From NCBI RefSeq assembly GCF_028858535.1, contig NZ_JAPMOU010000037.1, forward strand, positions 1 through 56,623: 56,623 nucleotides of DNA. The letters are read 5' to 3'. Below are positions 39,430 through 55,843 of this stretch, piece after piece. Position numbers and translations under genes: made by a program. Source of the stretch: Spartinivicinus poritis. Lineage in GTDB: Bacteria; Pseudomonadota; Gammaproteobacteria; Pseudomonadales; Zooshikellaceae. The stretch's first letter is position 1. Every line of letters starts with the position of its first letter. A model generated the notes under the pieces. The model worked only from the letters and a program-made list of their open reading frames with translations, was not told the origin of the DNA and ran no database searches.

Positions 39430-39990
39430 ATGTTAGATGTCAGCCCAACTTCAGATAAACCTTTCTTTGGTGTTGTTCAACTTTCAACATCACTAGGTTA
39501 TAAACAGTTATTTCACCCAGAAGCTGCAAGGCACAGGCCTGATGTCAGTTATCTTGCAGATATTTTGCGTCATACTTATCAAGGACCTAATAATCGAGCA
39601 AAATTAATAATTCACAATGAACTGCGTCAGGAATGGAACAAGCTTTTAGAAGAAAAGCATCATTTACTTAGCCACTATGTCACTCAAATCAAAAATCACT
39701 ACCAAAATGAGATGCTTAATTGGCTAAATTTTTTATCAAAACAGAAAAAAATGGTCGATATTCCATGGAATGACCCAACGGTTTGGCAGTTAATTCGCAT
39801 GGTATTACTGTTTGATGAAGGATGTCATTTTTTAGTCTGTGCTAAAAAGCAACAGCTAATTACTGAGCAATGTTTTAGCAAAGCTTATTTAGAGCTAGTT
39901 AGGCCCATTCGATTTTGTCTAGCAAAGATGTTACGTAGTCTGGAAGAACATCATTTATCTTTCGATAGCAATCGTAAAAATAGCTTATAA
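39430..39990 (+). CDS. Uncharacterised protein
   Basis: 186 residues, not recognised. No signal peptide or membrane segment. Mostly helical and rich in His, Gln, Leu and Lys; the middle part (about 75-115) may form a coiled coil (KLLEEKHHLLSHYVTQIKNH). A GGAGA lies 8 bases before the ATG. It ends 67 bp before the ferredoxin reductase-like gene in the same direction and may be co-transcribed with it, but the role is unknown. Confidence 0.6.
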   Translation: MLDVSPTSDKPFFGVVQLSTSLGYKQLFHPEAARHRPDVSYLADILRHTYQGPNNRAKLIIHNELRQEWNKLLEEKHHLLSHYVTQIKNHYQNEMLNWLNFLSKQKKMVDIPWNDPTVWQLIRMVLLFDEGCHFLVCAKKQQLITEQCFSKAYLELVRPIRFCLAKMLRSLEEHHLSFDSNRKNSL

Positions 39991-40996: not shown

Positions 40997-41899
40997 ATGA
41001 AAAAAAAACTTGCCTTTTTAGCAACCTTTTTTTGTTCTACTAGCTTTGCGCAAGAGCCAATTCGGGTTTTAGATATAGGAGTAATGGGGCTTGCTTCACA
41101 CGACTTGTTTCAATGGAACGGAAGAACGAAAACCAACGAAGAAAATGGTCGATTTGATTTAAGTACTATTTTTGATTATGGCAATGGTGAAAGAATCAGG
41201 CAGGGTGGTAATAGTAAAAACTCAAGTAATGCCGCTGTATTTACAGTTACTCAGAGTTTAGTGAGTTTTTACTATGGGCAAAAAACATCTTTGCTTATGT
41301 CCAGACGGTTTACTGAAGAGCAAGCTCACGAAATTGCCAGAAAAGCAACTGTTACCTTTTTTATTAGTATGGTAAAAGAGTCATACCAGCGGTTTAGTGG
41401 TAAATCACTGCCAGAAGTAGCAAATAGTGGCAGTGTTTCAGATGAAGAACAAGCCGTAATGCGAGCTTTGCATGATATTCTTCCTGGCAAAATTACAGTT
41501 AACCGGGGCCTTGCATCTCAAACGTTTGAGGTAACAGACTATAAAACGGCGATGACTTTCCTATCACCAACAGAGCTTAACCAAGAAGTGAAGTTTTTTG
41601 ATGGGAAATATGATGTTGAATATTTAAATGTTACAGTGCCAGGACCACGTGGGCCAATAACAATTAATTTACAAGAAGCAGACCAGCAATTTGTAGAAGG
41701 GCAAACAGGCTTTAATTTTTCTATTATGCTGGGTGAACTGGGTCGGTATGGCAACCAAACCCGTCAAAGTACTCAAAGCTTGGTTGAGTTTACCAGCTTT
41801 GGTTATCATCTAGAAAACCTGTTTTCTAAAGGCTTATGTAAGCAGAATCCGGATGGTACTGAAAATAAATGGGTGGTGCCTGGAATAGCTTGTGAGTAA
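40997..41899 (+). CDS. Secreted protein of unknown function behind a Fur box
   Basis: 300 residues. Signal peptide 1-18 (cleavage SFAQ). The mature part is not recognised: it has a mixed alpha/beta character, a basic helix region (RRFTEEQAHEIARKATVTFF), a GPRGPITINLQEAD stretch and two cysteines close to the C-terminus (LCKQNPDG and IACE) that may form a disulfide. It is not a TonB receptor or heme carrier of a family I know. A Fur box upstream and a strong terminator downstream suggest a single iron-regulated exported protein. Confidence 0.75.
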   Translation: MKKKLAFLATFFCSTSFAQEPIRVLDIGVMGLASHDLFQWNGRTKTNEENGRFDLSTIFDYGNGERIRQGGNSKNSSNAAVFTVTQSLVSFYYGQKTSLLMSRRFTEEQAHEIARKATVTFFISMVKESYQRFSGKSLPEVANSGSVSDEEQAVMRALHDILPGKITVNRGLASQTFEVTDYKTAMTFLSPTELNQEVKFFDGKYDVEYLNVTVPGPRGPITINLQEADQQFVEGQTGFNFSIMLGELGRYGNQTRQSTQSLVEFTSFGYHLENLFSKGLCKQNPDGTENKWVVPGIACE

Positions 41900-43426: not shown

Positions 43427-43600
43427 TTATATCTGTTGTATTCTTTCCCCTTCTTGGGCTAGCATTCAGCTCTGTTCTATCGTTTCTTAGGCTACCTCTA
43501 ATAGACCCTGTCGACTTGCGCAGAGGCTGTAAACAATTATTAGAGGTGCTCTTACTATCATCACACCAGTGTTTGTGATCAAACACTGGTTTTCTTTATT
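43427..43600 (+). ncRNA. Candidate structured RNA with intrinsic terminator
   Basis: Between the maoP hairpins and rimBK: a 10-bp perfect stem, ACCTCTAATA (43494-43503) with TATTAGAGGT (43538-43547), then an intrinsic terminator, ACCAGTGTTTG (43565-43575) with CAAACACTGGT (43580-43590) and TTTCTTT. No reading frame uses this stretch well. It could be a small RNA or an attenuated leader of the downstream gene, whose start lies 54 bases farther. No promoter was identified with confidence. Confidence 0.45.
43565..43600 (+). terminator. Rho-independent terminator upstream of rimBK
   Basis: 11-bp perfect stem ACCAGTGTTTG/CAAACACTGGT with a TGAT loop followed by TTTCTTTATT. It is rightward and precedes the RimB-RimK gene, so either it ends a separate RNA or it attenuates read-through into that gene. 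Confidence 0.85.
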
Positions 43601-43643
43601 AAAATTTTTATATGAAAACCAAATCACTGGAGACCATTTAAAG

Positions 43644-45074
43644 ATGACAAATGGAGAATTCAACAAATTGATTGTCGGAAGTGAAGAATGGTGCAGCTTT
43701 CCTGACATTCACATTCCGGCAGTCAAGGCACGTGTTGACTCCGGTGCTAAAACCTCCTCGCTACATGCATTTAATATTAATACCTTTAGGAAGGGCACAG
43801 AGCCATGGGTAAGCTTTGAAGTACACCCACTACAAAATAACCGTAAAGTCACGATTCGATGTGAAGCTAAGGTTGTTGATCGTCGCTCAATAAAAAGCTC
43901 CACAGGTATTAGCGAAAAGCGCTATGTCATCCAAACGACACTAAATATTAATGGCCAGCAATGGCCTATCGAGTTAACGCTGGCTAATCGTGACTCAATG
44001 GGGTATCGGATGCTATTGGGACGGGAGGCAATGATTGGCAGAATGCTGGTTGATCCTTCCAGTAGCTTTTGTTTAGGAGAACTGAGTACAGACAAACTGA
44101 ATGAGTATTATGGCGCTACCTCAAACCAGACGAGTGGGCTAAAAATCGGGTTATTAGCGAGTAATCCAGACTTATACAGTAACCGTCGTTTAATGGAAGC
44201 GGGGGAAGAACGTGGCCATGAAATGATATTTCTTAATATCAAGCAGTGTTATATGAAGCTTGATGCGGAAAATCCTGAAGTACATTATCGAGGTGGTCAC
44301 TTACTTAGTAGTCTTGACGCGGTCATTCCTAGAATTAAACCCAGTGTTACTTTTTATGGCTGTGCGTTAACTCGCCATTTTGAAAGTTTAGATACCTATA
44401 CGTTAAACTCGGCTGAAGCCATTACCCAGTCCCGAGATAAGTTATATTCATTACAACTGCTGTTAAAAAATGGGCTAGATATTCCTACCACTGGTTTTGC
44501 CAATTCCCCCATGGATACTAATGATCTGATTGAAATGGTGGGTGGAGCGCCTTTGATTGTTAAGCTGTTGGAAGGGGCACAAGGACGAGGGGTGGTGCTG
44601 GCTGAAACTAAAAAAGCAGCCGAAAGTGTGATTAACGCTTTTAAATCACTCAGGGCAAATTTATTAGTGCAGGAATTTATTAAAGAAGCCAGTGGGAAAG
44701 ATTTACGTTGCTTTGTTATTGATGGCAAAGTCGTTGCCAGCATTGAGCGTCAGGCGTCACCCGGTGAGTTTAGAGCTAATATCCATCAGGGAGGAACTGC
44801 GTCAGTGGTCAAGGTAACGGCTGAAGAAAAGAAACTAGCAATAAAAGCATCGAAAACGCTAGGCTTAAAAGTAGCGGGTGTCGATATTATTCGGTCAGAT
44901 AAAGGCCCGTTGCTTTTAGAGGTAAATTCTTCACCAGGGCTTGAAGGCATCGAAACTGCCACAGGCAGAGATATTGCTGGCGAAATGATCCGTGCCATCG
45001 AAAAGAAACTAAATTGGAAGCCCGCAATGCTAGAGGCAGTGATCCCAAGTAACCTGGAAACTGAGCAGGTGTAA
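43644..45074 (+). CDS. RimB-RimK fusion: retropepsin-like domain plus ATP-grasp glutamate ligase
   Basis: 476 residues from the ATG at 43644 (upstream frame overlaps a terminator). N-terminal retropepsin-like domain (about 5-150) with catalytic-type [11 protein letters not shown] (Asp32) and [15 protein letters not shown], as in RimB and PF05618. From about 170 a RimK-type ATP-grasp ligase: [57 protein letters not shown] and [20 protein letters not shown]. RimK adds glutamates to ribosomal protein S6; RimB in Pseudomonas stimulates it and is normally a separate gene. Here one chain joins both, which should fix their ratio. Substrate inferred from family. Confidence 0.9.
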
Positions 45075-45411: not shown

Positions 45412-48400
45412 TTAAGCGCTATTCTCTCTTTCCAGTTCGACTTTTTGTCTGGCTTTTGTCCATGGTGACTCTTTATCCGAAATTGACTCAAACCAATACA
45501 TTTCATCGGCATTTCGTGGAGCCACACCGGTACTTAATATGAGTCGTTTAAAGCCCAATTCGTATAAAGTTTTACCCCATTCACTGCCTCTGATGGGAAA
45601 GTCTAAAAACTCATCATCAATATAAACAGGGGTTTCTTTATCTATGTGCTCAGCATACTGCTCAAACTCAGTTGGGCTGGATAGTGACAGTAGTTTTGCG
45701 CCGTTTAATTGGGCTTCTAATTTCCAAGCCGTTCGTATGGTTTTAAAATCATCAACATGTACCGCATCGTAGCGAACGGATTCCCATGGGGCTACCTCAA
45801 TGGAAAGCCAATTTACTAAGGATTTGGGTAGAATTCTAACCCCTAGTTTTGAGCAGCGTTCTTGTACATTGGCACTTTTATAATGGCTGGTTACTAGAAT
45901 ACGAGTACTGGCGTTTGCGGGGATCATTTCAATAATATCCAATCCAGTTTTGGACTCCCCTAGTAGTTCGTAGTCAGATAATAAGACCAAAGGACGATTA
46001 GCATCTTTTTGTTGTTGCCAAAATTCCCCGATTTGTGCTTCATTACGGAAGTAATATACATCAATACAAGACTCCTTTAATGGCAGTGAGGCTAACCGGC
46101 TCTGCCAAACATTGTGCATACTGGCATCATCATCTAACACCATTAGCTGTGCATTAGCGGGTAGTAGTAAGAAGGGTAAGAACCATTCAGGTGCAGGCTG
46201 GATGGGGAGGACAATCGTAATTTGTGTGCCAACACCAGGGTTGGACTCTAAAGTAAATTTACCTTTCCATAGTTCAATGGTTGATTTAGCATGAGACAAG
46301 CCTAAACCGGTGTTACCTGTTTTCCCCATACTGATCCCACGCTCTAAGACTTTATCTATAAGCTCATTAGGAATGCCCTGGCCATTATCAGTCAGGGTAA
46401 TGACTGTCTTATTGTTTAATACTTTCAGGGTTATTTGAATACTAATCTGGGTTTGTTCACCTATGGCTTCTATTGAGTTATTGAGTAAATTAGACAGCAC
46501 TCGTCGTAGCGAGTTGGCATGTATATTCACAAAGGTACCATAGGCATCACTATCAATTTGCAGTTGAAGAGCGACCTCAGTTTGGCGGCGATATTGAATG
46601 CGTTTTTCTGATATCACTTCCTCTAGGATGGTAGATAGCAACTGTTTGGAAATTTGTTGTTTGGCGGGATCTTTATCAACACTTTGCTCTCGTTCAACGA
46701 CTAACAAACCATTGACAATATCACTCATACTCTCGATTGCACTATGAAGAACTATACGGTTTTGTTCAGGAATCGCTTCAGCAGAATGTTCAGCAATTTG
46801 TTCCAGCGCGGTGAGGGGAGAGCGGATGTCATGGGCCACTTGTGCCGCCATTTGGTTAATCCCTTCCAAATTGGCCATACGTTTTTCGTTTTCAATAAAG
46901 TCATTAAACTTGTTGGCCATGATGGCAAACTCATCAATAAAGTAACGCTCTTCGCCATTAGTATCCTTGAGTTTGTCTGATGTCTTATCCATGGCAATAT
47001 CTAACACCATCGTGGCTTCACTGCAGATACGTTTGACAATGCGGTAGGTGATACTAAACATCAAGAGAACAAAAGCAACATAAATAGTTGCCACAATAAT
47101 CAAGTGTTTTAAGGTTTTTTGATGGATTATTGAGTCATTAAAAAAAATGGTATATGAACCCCGTTGATTTTGTTTAATCAGTGAGTTGAAGTAGATATCC
47201 TTAGAAACAGAATAAGTTGATTGGCTTGTATCACAAGACGTTTGTTGAATTAGATCAATATTAATGTCTACGCAGTCGACATTTGCCATAATGTTAAGTG
47301 AATGGAGCAATTGACTGGCTTGCGAGGTATTTTCTATAAGAGAGAACTGTCCAGCATATTGTTCTGTAATGACCTGGTCTTGCTGACGTTGTGCTTCAGT
47401 GGCTTGTTTAACGAAGTACCAGGTTTCGCTTAAAAATACGACAAAACTGGCAATAAAGAACATAATGCCAATCACCATCCCTAAGCATTTTTTTAAGCTG
47501 GCACGCTCAAATTTACTGACGTTTTCTCCTTTTTTATAGTTAATTACAGCGAGGGCAGCACCAATAACCCCCAATACTGACATCATGACAAAAATACCCA
47601 TATGGGGTACCCCTGCAATTAAAATCAGCCCGGCAATCATTGCGTAGGTTAATCGTGCTAGTAAGGAGCCACCACTAAACCAGCTGGCTTTAAATTCATC
47701 AGGAACAAAACGATGGCTATCAGAGGTGATTTCAGCACGTAAGGCAAAGCAAATGGGGTCCGCAATTAGTATCACTAAGAACATACAGGAAAGTTTGGCA
47801 ATTGTTGAAATATCACTGTAAAAAGATATTGCTACTACCGCTGATAAAAAACCTAAAGCGAGAGTACCTAGCCATCGAATAGCCCGAAGGCCTGGTTGTA
47901 TAGATAACCAAGGAATAAAAAAGCGAGATATAGCTATTCCTAAAAAACTACTGATAACAGCAGCTCCCATACCACCGCCCCAAACTAATATTTGAGGTAG
48001 ATCAGCATCCTTAAATAGATAGTAAGACTCACCAATTAAAAACATGTAAGTAACTTGTAAAAAAAGGTGAGCAAAAGCATAAGTGCATAAAACAGGTAAT
48101 GTAGCTTGTGCGGATAAAAATAACTTAGTTACTGTTACATTTTGGGTTGAATTTCCATCTTTAATAGATATGGTTTTAAAATTCAGGTCTTTAGCCATTT
48201 TAAAGTAGGCTAAGACTTGAATCATAAGAATGTATAAGATTAGTCCTAAAGGAATAAGTGTTACATATTCCTTTGCTATATAAGTAAACTGCTTTGTTTG
48301 TAGTAATAAGCCAAGTCCAAGTGCAAATAATGGTAGTCCTAAACGGATCAATATACCGTACTTGTAGCTGGAAAGAAAAAGTGGAGGGGCATTATTGATT

Positions 48401-48837
48401 GAGCTATCGTTTTCCTTGAGCTTGTCTTGATACCAACGTTGATAAGCTGCTTGGTATGAACCACTGGTAAATGCACCATTAAGTGCACTACAAAGCTGGC
48501 GCAAGGCTAAGAAAATTAACATTAGAGTATATAAGCCGTAAATTGCACAAATAACCGTTAAGCTAAAAAACAAGGTGGCTGCAAAATCACAGAAAAGACC
48601 TAACCTAACAGAAAACTTCCAGCCAAAGCGGTCACCTAAATACCCTGTCGGGATTTCTAAAATTGCTGATAAAAAAAATAATAAAAATGTAGAAAGTACA
48701 ATTCCTTCTCGGCCAAATCCCTCTGTTGTGGCAATAATGCAGTAGACAATTAGGCCTGTTGCCATATTGCCGCCGCTTAACAAACCATCCGTGCGACCAA
48801 ACTGCCTTAATAGCTTGTCAGTATAAATACTGGACAT
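45412..48837 (-). CDS. MFS transporter-histidine kinase-receiver fusion
   Basis: 1141 residues. Residues 1-435: MFS transporter of about 12 helices, with motif A GYLGDRFG (65-72). Helix 451-471 and helix 577-598 flank an extracytoplasmic loop of about 105 residues with two cysteines. A HAMP-like linker follows (about 600-655). Kinase: His669 in AHDIRSPLTALEQ, N-box LLNNSIEA (784-791), G1 DNGQGIP (817-823), G2 GNTGLGLSHAK (841-851). Receiver 1 (about 897-1010) has the full set DDD (902-904), phosphoacceptor Asp955, Thr983/Ser984 and Lys1005. Receiver 2 (about 1022-1130) keeps VDD and YIDDEF but lacks a clear lysine. It reads as a transporter-sensor that feeds a phosphorelay. AAGGAA is its ribosome binding site. 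Divergent from a micro-ORF, and next to an NtrC-type pair. Confidence 0.93.
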   Translation of the reverse strand: MSSIYTDKLLRQFGRTDGLLSGGNMATGLIVYCIIATTEGFGREGIVLSTFLLFFLSAILEIPTGYLGDRFGWKFSVRLGLFCDFAATLFFSLTVICAIYGLYTLMLIFLALRQLCSALNGAFTSGSYQAAYQRWYQDKLKENDSSINNAPPLFLSSYKYGILIRLGLPLFALGLGLLLQTKQFTYIAKEYVTLIPLGLILYILMIQVLAYFKMAKDLNFKTISIKDGNSTQNVTVTKLFLSAQATLPVLCTYAFAHLFLQVTYMFLIGESYYLFKDADLPQILVWGGGMGAAVISSFLGIAISRFFIPWLSIQPGLRAIRWLGTLALGFLSAVVAISFYSDISTIAKLSCMFLVILIADPICFALRAEITSDSHRFVPDEFKASWFSGGSLLARLTYAMIAGLILIAGVPHMGIFVMMSVLGVIGAALAVINYKKGENVSKFERASLKKCLGMVIGIMFFIASFVVFLSETWYFVKQATEAQRQQDQVITEQYAGQFSLIENTSQASQLLHSLNIMANVDCVDINIDLIQQTSCDTSQSTYSVSKDIYFNSLIKQNQRGSYTIFFNDSIIHQKTLKHLIIVATIYVAFVLLMFSITYRIVKRICSEATMVLDIAMDKTSDKLKDTNGEERYFIDEFAIMANKFNDFIENEKRMANLEGINQMAAQVAHDIRSPLTALEQIAEHSAEAIPEQNRIVLHSAIESMSDIVNGLLVVEREQSVDKDPAKQQISKQLLSTILEEVISEKRIQYRRQTEVALQLQIDSDAYGTFVNIHANSLRRVLSNLLNNSIEAIGEQTQISIQITLKVLNNKTVITLTDNGQGIPNELIDKVLERGISMGKTGNTGLGLSHAKSTIELWKGKFTLESNPGVGTQITIVLPIQPAPEWFLPFLLLPANAQLMVLDDDASMHNVWQSRLASLPLKESCIDVYYFRNEAQIGEFWQQQKDANRPLVLLSDYELLGESKTGLDIIEMIPANASTRILVTSHYKSANVQERCSKLGVRILPKSLVNWLSIEVAPWESVRYDAVHVDDFKTIRTAWKLEAQLNGAKLLSLSSPTEFEQYAEHIDKETPVYIDDEFLDFPIRGSEWGKTLYELGFKRLILSTGVAPRNADEMYWFESISDKESPWTKARQKVELERENSA

Positions 48838-48972
48838 ATAAGTTCCTTCTGAATCATGTCTATAGTATGCTTAGTGTTTACTTAATTTAGGCAGTACGAA
48901 ACGAAGTACTACTAAATAATCCTAATTGATAAGTTTTCATAAAGAGTAAGTATAAACAAACAGAAAAAATGA

Positions 48973-49630: not shown

Positions 49631-50674
49631 TTATTGGTTGTTTATTAAACAGTCGAGTTCGATACTAAATAAAGCACCACCTGTCTTATTATTGGTTGCA
49701 GTGATAGTTCCGTTATGTATATGTATGACTTGTCGTACAGTTGCAAGGCCAACTCCTTTGCCGTGACCTTTTGTTGAATATAGCGGCAGAAATAACTTAT
49801 CTATCAGTTCTTGGGGGATACCCGGCCCATTGTCCGCTATATTTATTACGGACTTGCCTTGTTCTGTATGCAAGATGTTCAACTCGATTTTTCCATGAGT
49901 TGTGTTGGCTAGTGCGTCGACTGCGTTATTCACCAACTGGATTAAAGCATCTTGAAGTAACACAAGGTCGCCTTGAATCTCTAGGTTACTATCAGATAGG
50001 TTAGTGACTAGGGTAACTTTGTGTTCGATACACAACTCACCACAGATATCATTAACTGTGCCTAGCAGCCAGTTTAAGTTAATTTTCTGAAAGCGTGGTG
50101 AAGGTTGAGAGATGATTTTTTGCAGTCCATTATTATAGAGTTTTAGTTTATTAGTGGAGCTTAATATATTACCCATCACTTGTTCAATGCTGACACCTTC
50201 AAGCTGCATTTGGTTATCTGGAAGTCCTTGACTGAGTGCACTACTAAAGATGTCTAATGGTGTGATGATGTTTCCCAGTTTATGGCAAAATAAGGTAGCT
50301 ATATTTCGCCAAACATTCACTTCATGCATGTCTAGCTCTTGTTGAATAGGTTGCACTGAAACAATCTTGCTGACTTCACTGTTTCGAGCTTCACTTGCCA
50401 AAAGTATTACTGGAATAGTTTTATCAGCCAGAGTGATTGAAGATAAGGTCTTTTGATTTGGCTGGATACTAATAATATCCTGTTGGGCCGTACTATCTAG
50501 CGCTGGCGTGCCTCCCAGTTGCTCTTCCTGAAAAAGAAGACAAGCTTCTCTGTTGAGTAGCTTAATATTCTCATTTGAATAAACAGCTAATAGTGCAACT
50601 GGTACTTGATCAAGAGAATCGACAGGGCTTGACTGTTTATTTGTCTGACATAGATTGTAGATATTAGAGTTCAT
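49631..50674 (-). CDS. Soluble sensor histidine kinase, partner of the NtrC-type regulator
   Basis: 347 residues from the ATG at 50674, which has GAAGGA 9 bases upstream; a longer frame to 50704 overlaps the regulator further. No membrane helices. N-terminal PAS-like region (about 20-95, DQVPVALLAVYSNENIKLLN), then the phosphoacceptor helix with ATLFCHKLGNIITPL (His131), a variant of the usual H-E-x-x-N box. The ATPase domain has NNAVDALANTTHG, DNGPGIPQELIDKLFLPLYS and GKGVGLATVRQVIHIHNGTI, all intact. It likely senses a cytoplasmic signal and phosphorylates the regulator encoded just upstream; the genes overlap by 11 bp. Confidence 0.92.
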   Translation of the reverse strand: MNSNIYNLCQTNKQSSPVDSLDQVPVALLAVYSNENIKLLNREACLLFQEEQLGGTPALDSTAQQDIISIQPNQKTLSSITLADKTIPVILLASEARNSEVSKIVSVQPIQQELDMHEVNVWRNIATLFCHKLGNIITPLDIFSSALSQGLPDNQMQLEGVSIEQVMGNILSSTNKLKLYNNGLQKIISQPSPRFQKINLNWLLGTVNDICGELCIEHKVTLVTNLSDSNLEIQGDLVLLQDALIQLVNNAVDALANTTHGKIELNILHTEQGKSVINIADNGPGIPQELIDKLFLPLYSTKGHGKGVGLATVRQVIHIHNGTITATNNKTGGALFSIELDCLINNQ

Positions 50675-52061
50675 ACTTTTCGATCCTTCTATAAAGTGCT
50701 GCACGGGATATCCCTAGTTCTTTTGCTGCATGAGAAATATTGCCAGTGTATTTTTGTAAGGCGTCCTTTACTCTCTGCTTTTCCAGGTTGCCCAATTCCA
50801 GGGGTTGAGTTTGCGCTTGTGTTTTTATAGAAACTTCAGTTTTGGGTTGGCTGGCTGCTAATTGAAAGTCACGAATAAATAGTTCAGATTCGTTGCTCAG
50901 AATAATAGCTCGCTCAACACTGTTTTGTAACTCTCGAACATTGCCAGGCCAGGAATAACGTTGTAATGCCTTGAGTGTTTTCATTGAAATATGAGGTTTT
51001 GAGCGGTTGTATTTAAGTGAATACATATCCAAGAAGTAGTCAACCAAGAGGGGGATATCTTCACTTCTTTCCCTTAAAGCGGGTAATGTGATTTCAACGG
51101 TATTCAGGCGATACAACAGATCTTGCCGAAATCGAGTATTATCCAATAGCTCTGATCGAGGTAAATTAGTAGCGGCAATCACTCGTATATCAACCGACTT
51201 GCTTTGATTGGCACCAATAGCCTTTACTTCCCGTTGTGATAATACGCTGAGTAATTTGGTTTGAAGTTGGGTGGGGAGATTAGCGACCTCATCCAAAAAC
51301 AAAGTACCTTTATTAGCTTCAACAATATGGCCCACTCTATTTTGGGTAGCGCCGGTAAAAGCCCCTTTTTTGTGACCAAACAGTTCTGATTCAAATAGAC
51401 CTTCTGCAATAGTGCCTAGATCAATGGAGATAAATGATGATTTGTTGCGACTCGATTGTTGATGTATTTCTCTGGCAATTAACCCTTTACCTGTACCATT
51501 TTCACCTAAAATCAAAATATTGGCATCTGTTGGTGCTGACAAATAAATAGTATTCAACACTTGTTGTATTATAGGTGACTGACCAATTATCGGTTGTTCT
51601 GAGGGTTGACGAAGGTGAGACTTAACTGATTTACATTTCGTTACATTTTCCGTACATTTTTTAATTGAGGTTTTGAATTTGTAAGCTTCGGTTACTGTAG
51701 CCAGTAATTTAGTCTTATCCCAAGGCTTTACAATAAAATCACTGGCACCGCTTTTCAGGGCTTGAATGGCAAGGTCAACTTCGCCATAAGCGGTCATCAT
51801 AATAACCCGCGTTTCTGGAGATATGTGATTAATCTCAGAGAGCCAATAAAGACCTTCTGCACCTGTACAACTGTTAGGCGAAAAGTTCATGTCTAGTAAA
51901 ACGACATCATAAGTTGTATTATCTAAAAAAGTTGGTATCTGTTTTGGCTCATCACAAAGTTGGATGATATCAAAAGACGAGTTAAGTAATAGTTTGACGG
52001 AAGTAAGTGTTTCTTTGTCGTCGTCAACGATAAGAATGCTGGATAAATTGTCTTTGCTCAT
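50664..52061 (-). CDS. Sigma54-dependent NtrC-family response regulator
   Basis: 465 residues from the ATG at 52061 (an upstream TTG would add four). Receiver domain with ILIVDDDKE, phosphoacceptor Asp in VVLLDMNFS, MMTAYGEVD and VKPWDK. AAA+ domain about 155-385 with Walker A ILGENGTGKGLIAREIH, the sigma54-contacting loop GAFTGA (in FGHKKGAFTGATQN), Walker B GTLFLDEVANLP and a GNVRELQNSVERA sensor 2 region. Fis-type helix-turn-helix at the C-terminus (NISHAAKELGISRAALYRRI). It activates sigma54 promoters when phosphorylated. It forms an operon with the kinase gene. A long dyad and a rightward -24/-12 promoter lie directly upstream. Confidence 0.96.
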   Translation of the reverse strand: MSKDNLSSILIVDDDKETLTSVKLLLNSSFDIIQLCDEPKQIPTFLDNTTYDVVLLDMNFSPNSCTGAEGLYWLSEINHISPETRVIMMTAYGEVDLAIQALKSGASDFIVKPWDKTKLLATVTEAYKFKTSIKKCTENVTKCKSVKSHLRQPSEQPIIGQSPIIQQVLNTIYLSAPTDANILILGENGTGKGLIAREIHQQSSRNKSSFISIDLGTIAEGLFESELFGHKKGAFTGATQNRVGHIVEANKGTLFLDEVANLPTQLQTKLLSVLSQREVKAIGANQSKSVDIRVIAATNLPRSELLDNTRFRQDLLYRLNTVEITLPALRERSEDIPLLVDYFLDMYSLKYNRSKPHISMKTLKALQRYSWPGNVRELQNSVERAIILSNESELFIRDFQLAASQPKTEVSIKTQAQTQPLELGNLEKQRVKDALQKYTGNISHAAKELGISRAALYRRIEKYEL

Positions 52062-52110
52062 TGGTGCTTTCAACGTTCTGTTACTCCATGTACTGGCTTT
52101 TCCAGGTCAA

Positions 52111-53635: not shown

Positions 53636-55843
53636 ATGAAGAAGCGAATAAGCCTAGCGCTATTTTGCTTAGGCACCTCATTGCTATTTTCAGCTAATAA
53701 TACTTATGCACGTTCGGGATTTGTGGCAACCAAAGCCATAATAAAAAATAATATTGCAGTTGGAGATGTAAAATCAGACCCATTTCCTACCTTTAAACAA
53801 GCTCTAAATTGGGCGGCAGTAGAAGCAAGAAAAGTTTATGGCCGCCGATCTATTGCTGATAATTTAATGTTTTTAAAAGCAGGCAGCGCAAATGGTAAGC
53901 GTTACTGGGTCTATGCTGATAATGCTTTTAGACCCTATGTGCAACCTATAGAGTCACCAGAAGCTGTCAATTATGTTTGGAATGCAGACATTAGAGGCTG
54001 TCCCCATATTATAAAAAGAGGTGGACAAAGGGGTATTAGAGCTTATTTCAGTGACGACCGTGTGGCTATCATTGATTATAATTATTTTGGACAAAATCAA
54101 AATATCTACAATGGTACAGTATCAAAATCCTGCTCTTACCGTAGTGGCGCTAGTTACTCAGGCAAAGTCTATTTATTAAATACTGTAAAAATTTATGAAG
54201 TTGATCTCGGTAATGTAGAGCCACCAGAAGTACCAGCAACAGCCAAGCTTGAAAGACCACAAAAGGAGGAATTAGGCGACAAGCTCTGTAGTGGTAACCT
54301 TAAAAATAATCCCGTCAACGTGACCACAGGCAATAAATACCAGCCATTTAACCTACCGTTAGCTGATATAAAAATAGACAATACGATTCACTACAACAGT
54401 AAGTCCTCTGTAAGCGGTTTATTCGGTAAAAACCGCACATCACTACTTGATACCCATGTCACTGTTAATGACAACAAAGCAGTAATCCAAATGCCAGACG
54501 GCCAGATTTTGCACCTATATAAACAAGGTCATAAATGGGCGCGTATTGATGTCAATTTTGAACTGGTAAAAGCCACTGATGGATGGGTGTTAAAAGACAC
54601 AACTAGCAAGCGAAAACTGCACTTTAACAGTCGAGGGCAGTTAACGGCTATCACTCAGTTTAGAGGGTTCGTCACCAAGTTAATTTATACAAGTAGTGGT
54701 GTAATTAGCCAGGTACAAGATCACTATGGTACTGCGGTTGATGTGCAGCTAAACAATGGCGTTGTTAAGTCTTTAGCCCTGGTTGGTCAAGATAATGTGG
54801 TTAGTTTTGGCTACGATGGCAAAGGCAACCTAAGCACCATTACCCACAAAAACGATACTTACGAATTTAAATTTGATGATTCCCGCTACCCTCATGCACT
54901 GACCAAACGCTTAAAAAACAATAAAGAGCTGGCACGCTACGGATATGATAAAGAAGGACGAGTTGCTTATAGCCAAATTGGAGAAAAGACAGGGGAAGGA
55001 ACAGTTGTAAATAAGTTCACGTATGAATTTAAGGAAAATAAAACGATTGTTACCAACCCGCTAGGGAAGAAAACAACCTATCACTATGAGGTTTACCCAA
55101 CAGCTTTCAACATCACCAAAGTTGAAGGCCATAAGTCAAAAAACTGTATAGCAGCCAACCAAAACTATACCTATTACCCTAATGGTATGATTAAGTCGCA
55201 AACCGATTGGAAAGGCAATAAAACTACCTTTCAACATAATGCGCGAGGGCTAGAAGTTAAACGAGTTGAGGCAGAAGGAACTGAACAAGAAAGAGTTTTC
55301 TACACAACATGGCACGATACATTTGACACTCCACTAACCATTAACCAGGGCAACAAAACCCAAGCTTTTACTTATGATGATGAAGGGCGAGTCCACAATA
55401 AAATCACTCGCAAAAAAATAAATAGTGACCATCAAATTAACCCTCATGACGGCAGTGTTGATCCTGCACTAGTGGAACCAGAAGAGCCAGTAGAACCTGA
55501 AGAACCTATAGAAGTGCCTATCGAAACAGGTCCACCTGATGTCAAACCGTTGAAATCATTTCATATTCGTTCCTGGTACAACTTCGGAGCTTGGTCATGC
55601 AGAGAGAATCCAATCACTGTTAATGGTATTCCTGTTCAAAATAGCCGTATTTTATTAGACGAAGGTAAGCATGTTTTAAGTTTTAATAGCTCGTGCAGGT
55701 GTACAAGCAACATTACTTCAAGATGCTCTCTTAATGGTTACATTAAGATCACTGGCCCTAGCAATAATATAGAGCTGAATTTTGCAAACGGCACTAAGTA
55801 CTTCTCAACCAATCGTTATGGACGCTTAAAAGTAGGCTGGTAA
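53636..55843 (+). CDS. Secreted RHS/YD-repeat protein with DUF6531-like domain
   Basis: 735 residues, signal peptide 1-25 (cleavage TYARS). An N-terminal part (about 26-200) is unrecognised. From about 215 there is a DUF6531-like start (PVNVTTGNKYQPFNLPLADI) and then YD-repeat strands (FGYDGKGNLSTITHKNDTYE, YGYDKEGRVAYSQIGEKTGE, FTYDDEGRVHNKI). After an acidic Glu/Pro linker (about 620-645) comes a 95-residue cysteine-containing domain (SWYNFGAWSCREN, SFNSSCRCTSNITSRCSLNG) where RHS toxins usually vary. It lacks the full shell-closing core, so it may be a broken or specialised member. A second RHS gene follows. Confidence 0.85.
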   Translation: MKKRISLALFCLGTSLLFSANNTYARSGFVATKAIIKNNIAVGDVKSDPFPTFKQALNWAAVEARKVYGRRSIADNLMFLKAGSANGKRYWVYADNAFRPYVQPIESPEAVNYVWNADIRGCPHIIKRGGQRGIRAYFSDDRVAIIDYNYFGQNQNIYNGTVSKSCSYRSGASYSGKVYLLNTVKIYEVDLGNVEPPEVPATAKLERPQKEELGDKLCSGNLKNNPVNVTTGNKYQPFNLPLADIKIDNTIHYNSKSSVSGLFGKNRTSLLDTHVTVNDNKAVIQMPDGQILHLYKQGHKWARIDVNFELVKATDGWVLKDTTSKRKLHFNSRGQLTAITQFRGFVTKLIYTSSGVISQVQDHYGTAVDVQLNNGVVKSLALVGQDNVVSFGYDGKGNLSTITHKNDTYEFKFDDSRYPHALTKRLKNNKELARYGYDKEGRVAYSQIGEKTGEGTVVNKFTYEFKENKTIVTNPLGKKTTYHYEVYPTAFNITKVEGHKSKNCIAANQNYTYYPNGMIKSQTDWKGNKTTFQHNARGLEVKRVEAEGTEQERVFYTTWHDTFDTPLTINQGNKTQAFTYDDEGRVHNKITRKKINSDHQINPHDGSVDPALVEPEEPVEPEEPIEVPIETGPPDVKPLKSFHIRSWYNFGAWSCRENPITVNGIPVQNSRILLDEGKHVLSFNSSCRCTSNITSRCSLNGYIKITGPSNNIELNFANGTKYFSTNRYGRLKVGW

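Follow-up and report, generated by a model that had tools for sequence, protein, structure and literature searches.

What kind of protein is encoded by a 1141-codon frame on the minus strand of a 56,623-nucleotide stretch of the genome of the marine gammaproteobacterium Spartinivicinus poritis (contig NZ_JAPMOU010000037.1, positions 1 to 56,623; hereafter, the window), in which a transporter-like membrane domain precedes a histidine kinase in one chain? The answer we favour, and which we hold to be rather probable, is a membrane sensor kinase with a repurposed MFS transporter domain as its input module. The architecture, read by eye in the original prediction, was confirmed as correct save for the second of its two receivers, and its parts are as follows (TM, transmembrane helix).

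45412..48837, minus strand: whole gene, 1141 residues, in the order MFS, TM13, extracytoplasmic segment, TM14, HisKA, HATPase_c, REC1, REC2-like (frame, homologues)
48843..48850, minus strand: ribosome-binding-site-like AGAAGGAA, 5 nucleotides upstream of the ATG (by eye)
47518..48837, minus strand: MFS domain, residues 1-440, 12 predicted TM helices (profile, model, topology)
48616..48645, minus strand: MFS motif A in loop 2-3, GYLGDRFGWK, residues 65-74 (alignment of copies and relatives)
47407..47481, minus strand: predicted TM13, residues 453-477 (model, topology)
47116..47406, minus strand: extracytoplasmic segment, residues 478-574 (about 97), predicted alpha/beta (model, topology)
47038..47115, minus strand: predicted TM14, residues 575-600 (model, topology)
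46882..47037, minus strand: linker, residues 601-652, HAMP-like by eye only
46618..46881, minus strand: DHp/HisKA, residues 653-740, with the phospho-acceptor His669 at 46831-46833 (Pfam, alignment)
46198..46518, minus strand: HATPase_c catalytic domain, residues 774-880 (Pfam)
45778..46155, minus strand: receiver REC1, residues 895-1020, with D955 at 45973-45975 (profile comparison, alignment)
45415..45777, minus strand: REC2-like degenerate domain, residues 1021-1141 (weak profile match, alignment)

Is the fusion real? The frame runs from an ATG at 48837 to a stop at 45412-45414 over 1141 codons without a single internal stop, and the hybrid-kinase gene is found at full length in all three genomes of the genus, namely in two copies in the own genome, two in genome G001 and one in genome G002. 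Relative to the window copy, the other four are 95% (L009, in G001), 75% (L010, in G002), 74% (L002, the second copy in the own genome) and 73% (L011, in G001) identical. An interruption of the frame, which the original prediction had named as the finding that would speak against it, was seen in none of the five genes. A chance or mis-assembled joining of transporter and kinase is ruled out, since all five copies are open and full-length and come from three genomes, two of them in only 4 contigs each, and we regard such an artefact as next to impossible. What is more, the whole-length ratio of nonsynonymous to synonymous substitution rates (dN/dS) is 0.106 between the window copy and L009 and 0.088 between L002 and L011; with values of about 0.1 across its full length, the protein is therefore under purifying selection.

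The central question is whether the N-terminal helices are an MFS domain at all. An N-terminal profile made from the five sequences matched an alignment of 21 of the own genome's MFS_1 proteins with a score of 49.5 (85.3%), a value reached in none of 100 local column shuffles, whose maximum was 31.6; the 21 were drawn from 27 Pfam match rows, with six left out as second or overlapping matches, frames with stops, or the fusion protein L045. The reversed profile gave 0.7% against the same set. Other transporter folds were rejected for the N-terminus, namely MatE (1.9% against an alignment of 6 sequences) and SSF (0.1% against one of 2 sequences only), and no SSF match was listed in the Pfam scans of either the full-length window protein or its N-terminus. 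The nearest MFS subfamily that we found comprises ten plain, stand-alone proteins of approximately 400-430 residues without a kinase (L121-L127 and L146-L148), which share motifs in register with the window protein and are 11-17% identical to it in alignment A5, the replacement for an alignment of mixed MFS proteins (A3) that was poor around TM11. All ten match Pfam MFS_1 at E <=0.001, as do, in Pfam, five other proteins used for folding. The N-terminal profile matched the ten at 93.9% and the first seven, L121-L127, alone at 68.3%, and such matches are the weaker evidence, because these sets of relatives descended from the query's own hits. In particular, EIPTGYLGDRFGWK (motif A), SGSxxA and KASWFSGGSLLAR fall in register with EVPSGYxSDRxGRR, SG[ST]DxA and RATxLSLxSLxxR of L121-L127. 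The pattern G65xxxD69R70xG72xK74 is present in all five copies, with W73 departing from the Arg of the relatives.

The predicted structure points in the same direction. A model of residues 1-620, made with 15 MFS sequences added to the alignment, reached a predicted local distance difference test value (pLDDT) of 65.9 and a predicted template modelling score (pTM) of 0.65, and contained 12 helices followed by TM13, a helix-and-strand segment and TM14. Foldseek returned 210 PDB matches to this model at E <=0.001, and the 50 of these that were listed are, judging by their titles, MFS proteins; in a viral structure library, among the titles naming a function, those with the best scores were also of MFS type. 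The predicted topology fits the positive-inside rule: seven inside loops hold 20 Lys or Arg residues, the first six outside loops hold 2 and the outside segment of 97 residues holds 5, which would place the termini, loops 2-3, 6-7 and 12-13 and the kinase inside, and residues 478-574 outside. Pfam found no family above cut-off in that segment and listed no HAMP domain in the window protein.

That said, a number of results weigh against this assignment. The Pfam scan of the full-length protein did not list MFS, and with the N-terminus alone MFS_1 appeared at E 0.0009, under the curated cut-off, for the window copy, at E 0.48 for L002 and not at all for L010. One of the profile controls was not clean, the MatE alignment matching the MFS set at 9.2%, and the motif A region carries much of the MFS profile signal. 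Where at least 7 of 8 plain relatives share a residue (80 columns), that residue is present in all five copies in only 21 columns, and a PDB sequence search with the N-terminal profile yielded nothing meaningful, with one irrelevant hit at E 2.1. The AlphaFold2 model of the full-length protein, built from the five family sequences, had a pLDDT of 36.4. Moreover, the MFS fold of the shorter model depends on the hypothesis by way of the added sequences; in other words, it is support and not independent proof, because MFS rows stood in the input alignment. Taking the profile comparisons and the predicted fold together, residues 1-440 are nevertheless best read as a divergent MFS domain. The original count of about 12 MFS helices in one 1141-residue chain, with two further helices around an extracytoplasmic loop, thus stands in profile, model and topology, and the other named objection, that the helices might lack an MFS fold in profile and structure searches, was not borne out in either.

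At the kinase end, HATPase_c was found by Pfam at E 1e-20, above cut-off, and HisKA at E 6.2e-5, slightly below it (23.4 bits against 26.9). His669 is identical in all five copies, as are the N, G1 and G2 boxes, which were located by eye, and kinase cores are the closest solved sequences to the window protein, with ZraS first; the kinase core with His669 is as complete as had been proposed. For the receivers, Pfam is less informative, Response_reg appearing, with the C-terminus alone, at E 0.0015 (below cut-off) in the window copy and not being found in L010. We compared both regions with 29 receiver loci of the own genome, out of 30 fetched from 104 receiver-domain matches (G000, 6.8 Mb; E 1e-10), one locus having been dropped by a pattern filter. 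The REC1 profile matched at 87.9%, a value reached in none of 60 shuffles, with D903, D904, D955, T983 and K1005 falling on the receiver Asp, Asp, Asp, Thr and Lys, and residues D902-D904, D955, T983 and K1005 are identical in the five copies. REC1 is, by its sequence, clearly a receiver with a complete pocket. The second one reached 5.1%, with a score of 19.3 against a maximum of 18.6 in 60 shuffles; D1030 and D1074, with receiver-like Asp spacing, are identical in all five copies, and the receiver Lys is apparently missing, as read by eye. Of the two receivers originally proposed, the complete one is thus upheld and the degenerate one is no more than plausible.

How might such a protein work? 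A small solute would bind in the MFS cavity, and the shift in transporter conformation would be passed through cytoplasmic loop 12-13 and TM13/TM14 to the DHp helices, where it would set the autophosphorylation of His669; the small extracytoplasmic domain between TM13 and TM14 may add a second input. Phosphate would then move from His669 to Asp955 in the receiver of the same chain, and either Asp955 or His669 itself would pass it on to a partner whose gene lies elsewhere in the genome. The binding of a ligand, its conformational coupling to the kinase, and the existence and direction of the relay are inferences, as is the direct driving of the kinase by the MFS domain of which the original prediction speaks.

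Would the MFS domain, on this reading, still carry its solute? One can argue for a two-function transceptor of the kind proposed for CbrA, which would go on transporting and would at the same time inform the kinase of that transport. Namely, the motif A core (G65, D69, R70, G72, K74) and the subfamily residues E61, P63, S125, G126, S388 and R395 do not vary among the five copies; of the large parts of the protein, the MFS part shows the highest conservation (79-98% identity between copies); and the SLC5 domain of CbrA, according to the portions of the paper available to us, transports L-histidine and modulates the kinase (PMC7096432). However, all five copies have Y128 for the Asp of SG[ST]D and W73 for the Arg after the second Gly of motif A, although neither this Asp nor this Arg varies among the 8 plain relatives; the TM7 Glu present in 7 of the 8 is not kept, the register there being uncertain. 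A fused transporter domain can also lose transport, as in Ks-Amt5 of Kuenenia stuttgartiensis, whose Amt domain is described, in the part of the report available, as binding ammonium without moving it (PMC5764959). We consider continued transport to be a serious but rather unlikely alternative, and lean slightly, by analogy with Ks-Amt5, toward a receptor in which transport may have been lost or weakened.

A different objection is that the fused transporter need not be the driver, because CbrA signalling, as far as the accessible text goes, survives deletion of its SLC5 domain (PMC7096432). All of the true sensing could fall to the extracytoplasmic segment, residues 478-574, of an otherwise ordinary two-helix hybrid kinase, with the MFS domain a mere anchor or dimerisation platform. 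The arrangement of TM13, an extracytoplasmic alpha/beta segment, TM14 and a kinase is indeed the conventional layout of a sensor kinase. Yet conservation of the segment is comparatively low within the protein (63-92% between copies, compared with the figure for the MFS domain given above), the reverse of what one would expect if the MFS domain were a mere anchor, even if a fast-changing sensor could still yield such low conservation. We find this alternative distinctly unlikely, and continue to regard a repurposed MFS domain as the probable input.

How widespread is the fusion? Full-length relatives at E 1e-30 were found in 3 of the 95 genomes of the kinship sample, all three being members of the genus, and in neither of the two genomes of the family's other genus at the same threshold. 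Searches with the N-terminal profile, in class, phylum and family samples that overlap and in which only first-look candidates were scored, so that distant members could be missed, gave a similar picture. Among 369 class genomes, they returned the own genome and one weak plain MFS protein (L017, E 2.8e-5; MFS_1); among 398 phylum genomes, the own genome only; and in the family sample, 3 of 5 genomes, again the three of the genus. With E up to 5, 33 of the 369 class genomes matched, the own genome included, and in 14 such loci, chosen by frame length and place, a motif-A-like pattern was present in 12 and absent from L052 and L065. No relative of the fusion was found in GTDB 220 contigs, where the one match (L019) was to the kinase domain only, nor in viral contigs, nor in plasmids searched with the N-terminus. 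Two long frames were tried as further fusions and set aside by eye: in L055 (1048 residues) the part read resembles a helicase and was taken as a chance match, and L045 (968 residues) seems to join its membrane domain to a spermidine-synthase-like domain and not to a kinase. At the latter locus (G000:C14:77044-78198), one frame of at least 905 residues appears, by eye, to contain an MFS-like membrane domain and the spermidine-synthase-like domain. Within these limited samples, the fusion family is found in Spartinivicinus only, and the rarity claimed at the outset holds for the samples and literature searched, where the search was for this family and not for MFS-kinase fusions that arose separately.

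The five copies also allow one to ask which end of the protein has changed. We calculated branch ratios (window lineage over paralog lineage, with L010 as the third point and bootstrap ranges in brackets), which were 0.67 (0.45-0.96) for the MFS domain, 0.89 (0.47-1.52) from TM13 to TM14, 1.30 (0.64-2.53) for the linker and DHp, 1.76 (1.06-3.24) for the catalytic domain, 3.60 (2.12-8.02) for receiver 1 and 4.22 (2.32-9.61) for the receiver-2 region. In other words, the output end (45415-46155) is approximately 4 times faster in the window lineage and the MFS end slightly faster in the paralog lineage, in a comparison of five sequences that cannot be rooted and whose synonymous divergence between copies is close to saturation (dS of about 1.8 to 2.1). 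A bolder proposal, which we advance only tentatively and which may well prove wrong, would be an MFS-based transceptor kinase in which the MFS conformational cycle and the extracytoplasmic domain together set the phosphorelay, and in which, following duplication, the output receivers were rewired in one copy, its input being retained, whereas the other copy retained its output.

Which partner would receive the signal? The original prediction pointed to the neighbouring NtrC-type protein, and the genes in question are the following.

49631..50704, minus strand: kinase without an evident TM helix (domain scans; beside 2 of 5 copies)
50664..52073, minus strand: NtrC-type regulator (domain scans; beside 2 of 5 copies)

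These are the next upstream genes on the same strand and overlap each other, and the pair is kept beside the 95% orthologue (locus L014), where kinase and regulator are 89% and 90% identical to those of the window, the L014 regulator frame having been read only in part near a contig end. However, 793 nucleotides separate the neighbouring kinase gene from the hybrid-kinase gene, and the three other copies have unrelated neighbours without such a pair: at the paralog loci L012 and L013, a DUF2063 protein, an MbnB/TglH/ChrH-type enzyme and an endonuclease/exonuclease/phosphatase family protein, and at locus L015, a MatE protein, a LysR regulator and, divergently, an OmpR-type regulator with a HisKA kinase. 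The adjacency thus holds for the window and its closest orthologue only, and that the pair are dedicated partners of the hybrid kinase strikes us as improbable. It should also be noted, as a point against the proposed scheme, that no neighbouring gene is constant across the five copies; the kinase therefore looks like an orphan, with a partner to be sought elsewhere in the genome. The 104 receiver-domain matches of the own genome we judge to be a large two-component repertoire.

A few observations around these genes are worth recording in their own right. The MbnB/TglH/ChrH-type enzyme and the DUF2063 protein (L012 12435-14037; L013 11961-13581) adjoin the paralogous kinase gene in both genomes. 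In the window, one plus-strand frame (43569-45074) combines a RimB-type retropepsin-like domain (33-167) with a RimK ligase (191-482), matched by separate models; plus-strand frames of 300 (40997-41899) and 186 residues (39430-39990) have no Pfam or NCBIfam family above cut-off; and a plus-strand frame of 735 residues (53636-55843) with DUF6531 and an RHS repeat is a short RHS-type protein. Scans of the window found 13 promoters with 15.4 expected, 5 terminators with 2.9 expected (standard deviation 1.8), and no Rfam family at the gathering threshold.

How does the protein compare with known systems? If the bolder proposal above is true, this would be, to our knowledge, the first MFS-based transceptor kinase. 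The window protein also shows that the MFS domain of a fused sensor can fall below the Pfam cut-off, so that more such fusions may be hidden. As an analogy only, the yeast glucose receptors Snf3 and Rgt2 are described, in the text available, as 12-helix transporter-like receptors with a cytoplasmic signalling tail; these are eukaryotic proteins, and their tails are not known to carry a kinase. UhpC is an MFS protein, and the UhpC-UhpB-UhpA system consists of separate proteins, whereas the window protein is one chain with its own receiver. There, a transporter-like receptor activates a histidine kinase, a likeness that we draw by description only, from the accessible parts of two papers (PMC8871633, PMC7096432). 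Closer in layout are CbrA and CrbS (SLC5-STAC), in which, as in the window protein, a multi-helix transporter domain lies N-terminal to a histidine kinase in one chain, and CrbS is, in the portion available, also a hybrid kinase (PMC5715377). Their transporter is, however, of the SLC5 type and not MFS (0.1% against the two-sequence SSF alignment), and their linker is STAC, with an additional PAS in CbrA, where the window protein has TM13, the extracytoplasmic segment and TM14; Pfam listed no STAC in the window protein, the presence of a STAC model in that copy of Pfam not having been checked. CbrA is further paired with a regulator, CbrB (PMC7096432, as far as accessible), unlike the five copies here, which have no constant one. 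Ks-Amt5 likewise fuses a transporter fold to a HisKA-type kinase, binds its ligand and signals, but its fold is Amt, the link is direct, without PAS, HAMP or STAC, and the accessible part of that report mentions neither a receiver nor an extracytoplasmic domain (PMC5764959).

The open-access literature on transporter-kinases, in the portions available, offers fusions with SLC5 or Amt domains, together with the split UhpC system, and within it we found no MFS domain fused to a histidine kinase, subscription papers and domain-architecture databases being outside its scope. What is known, then, is the fusion of transporters (SLC5, Amt) to kinases, and what is new, subject to the literature searched, is the single-chain MFS version. 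Work on CbrA, Ks-Amt5 and UhpC/UhpB addresses the standing question of how information passes from transporter to kinase, and a single-chain MFS kinase with paralogs differing in both input and output would allow the coupling path to be tested on one protein.

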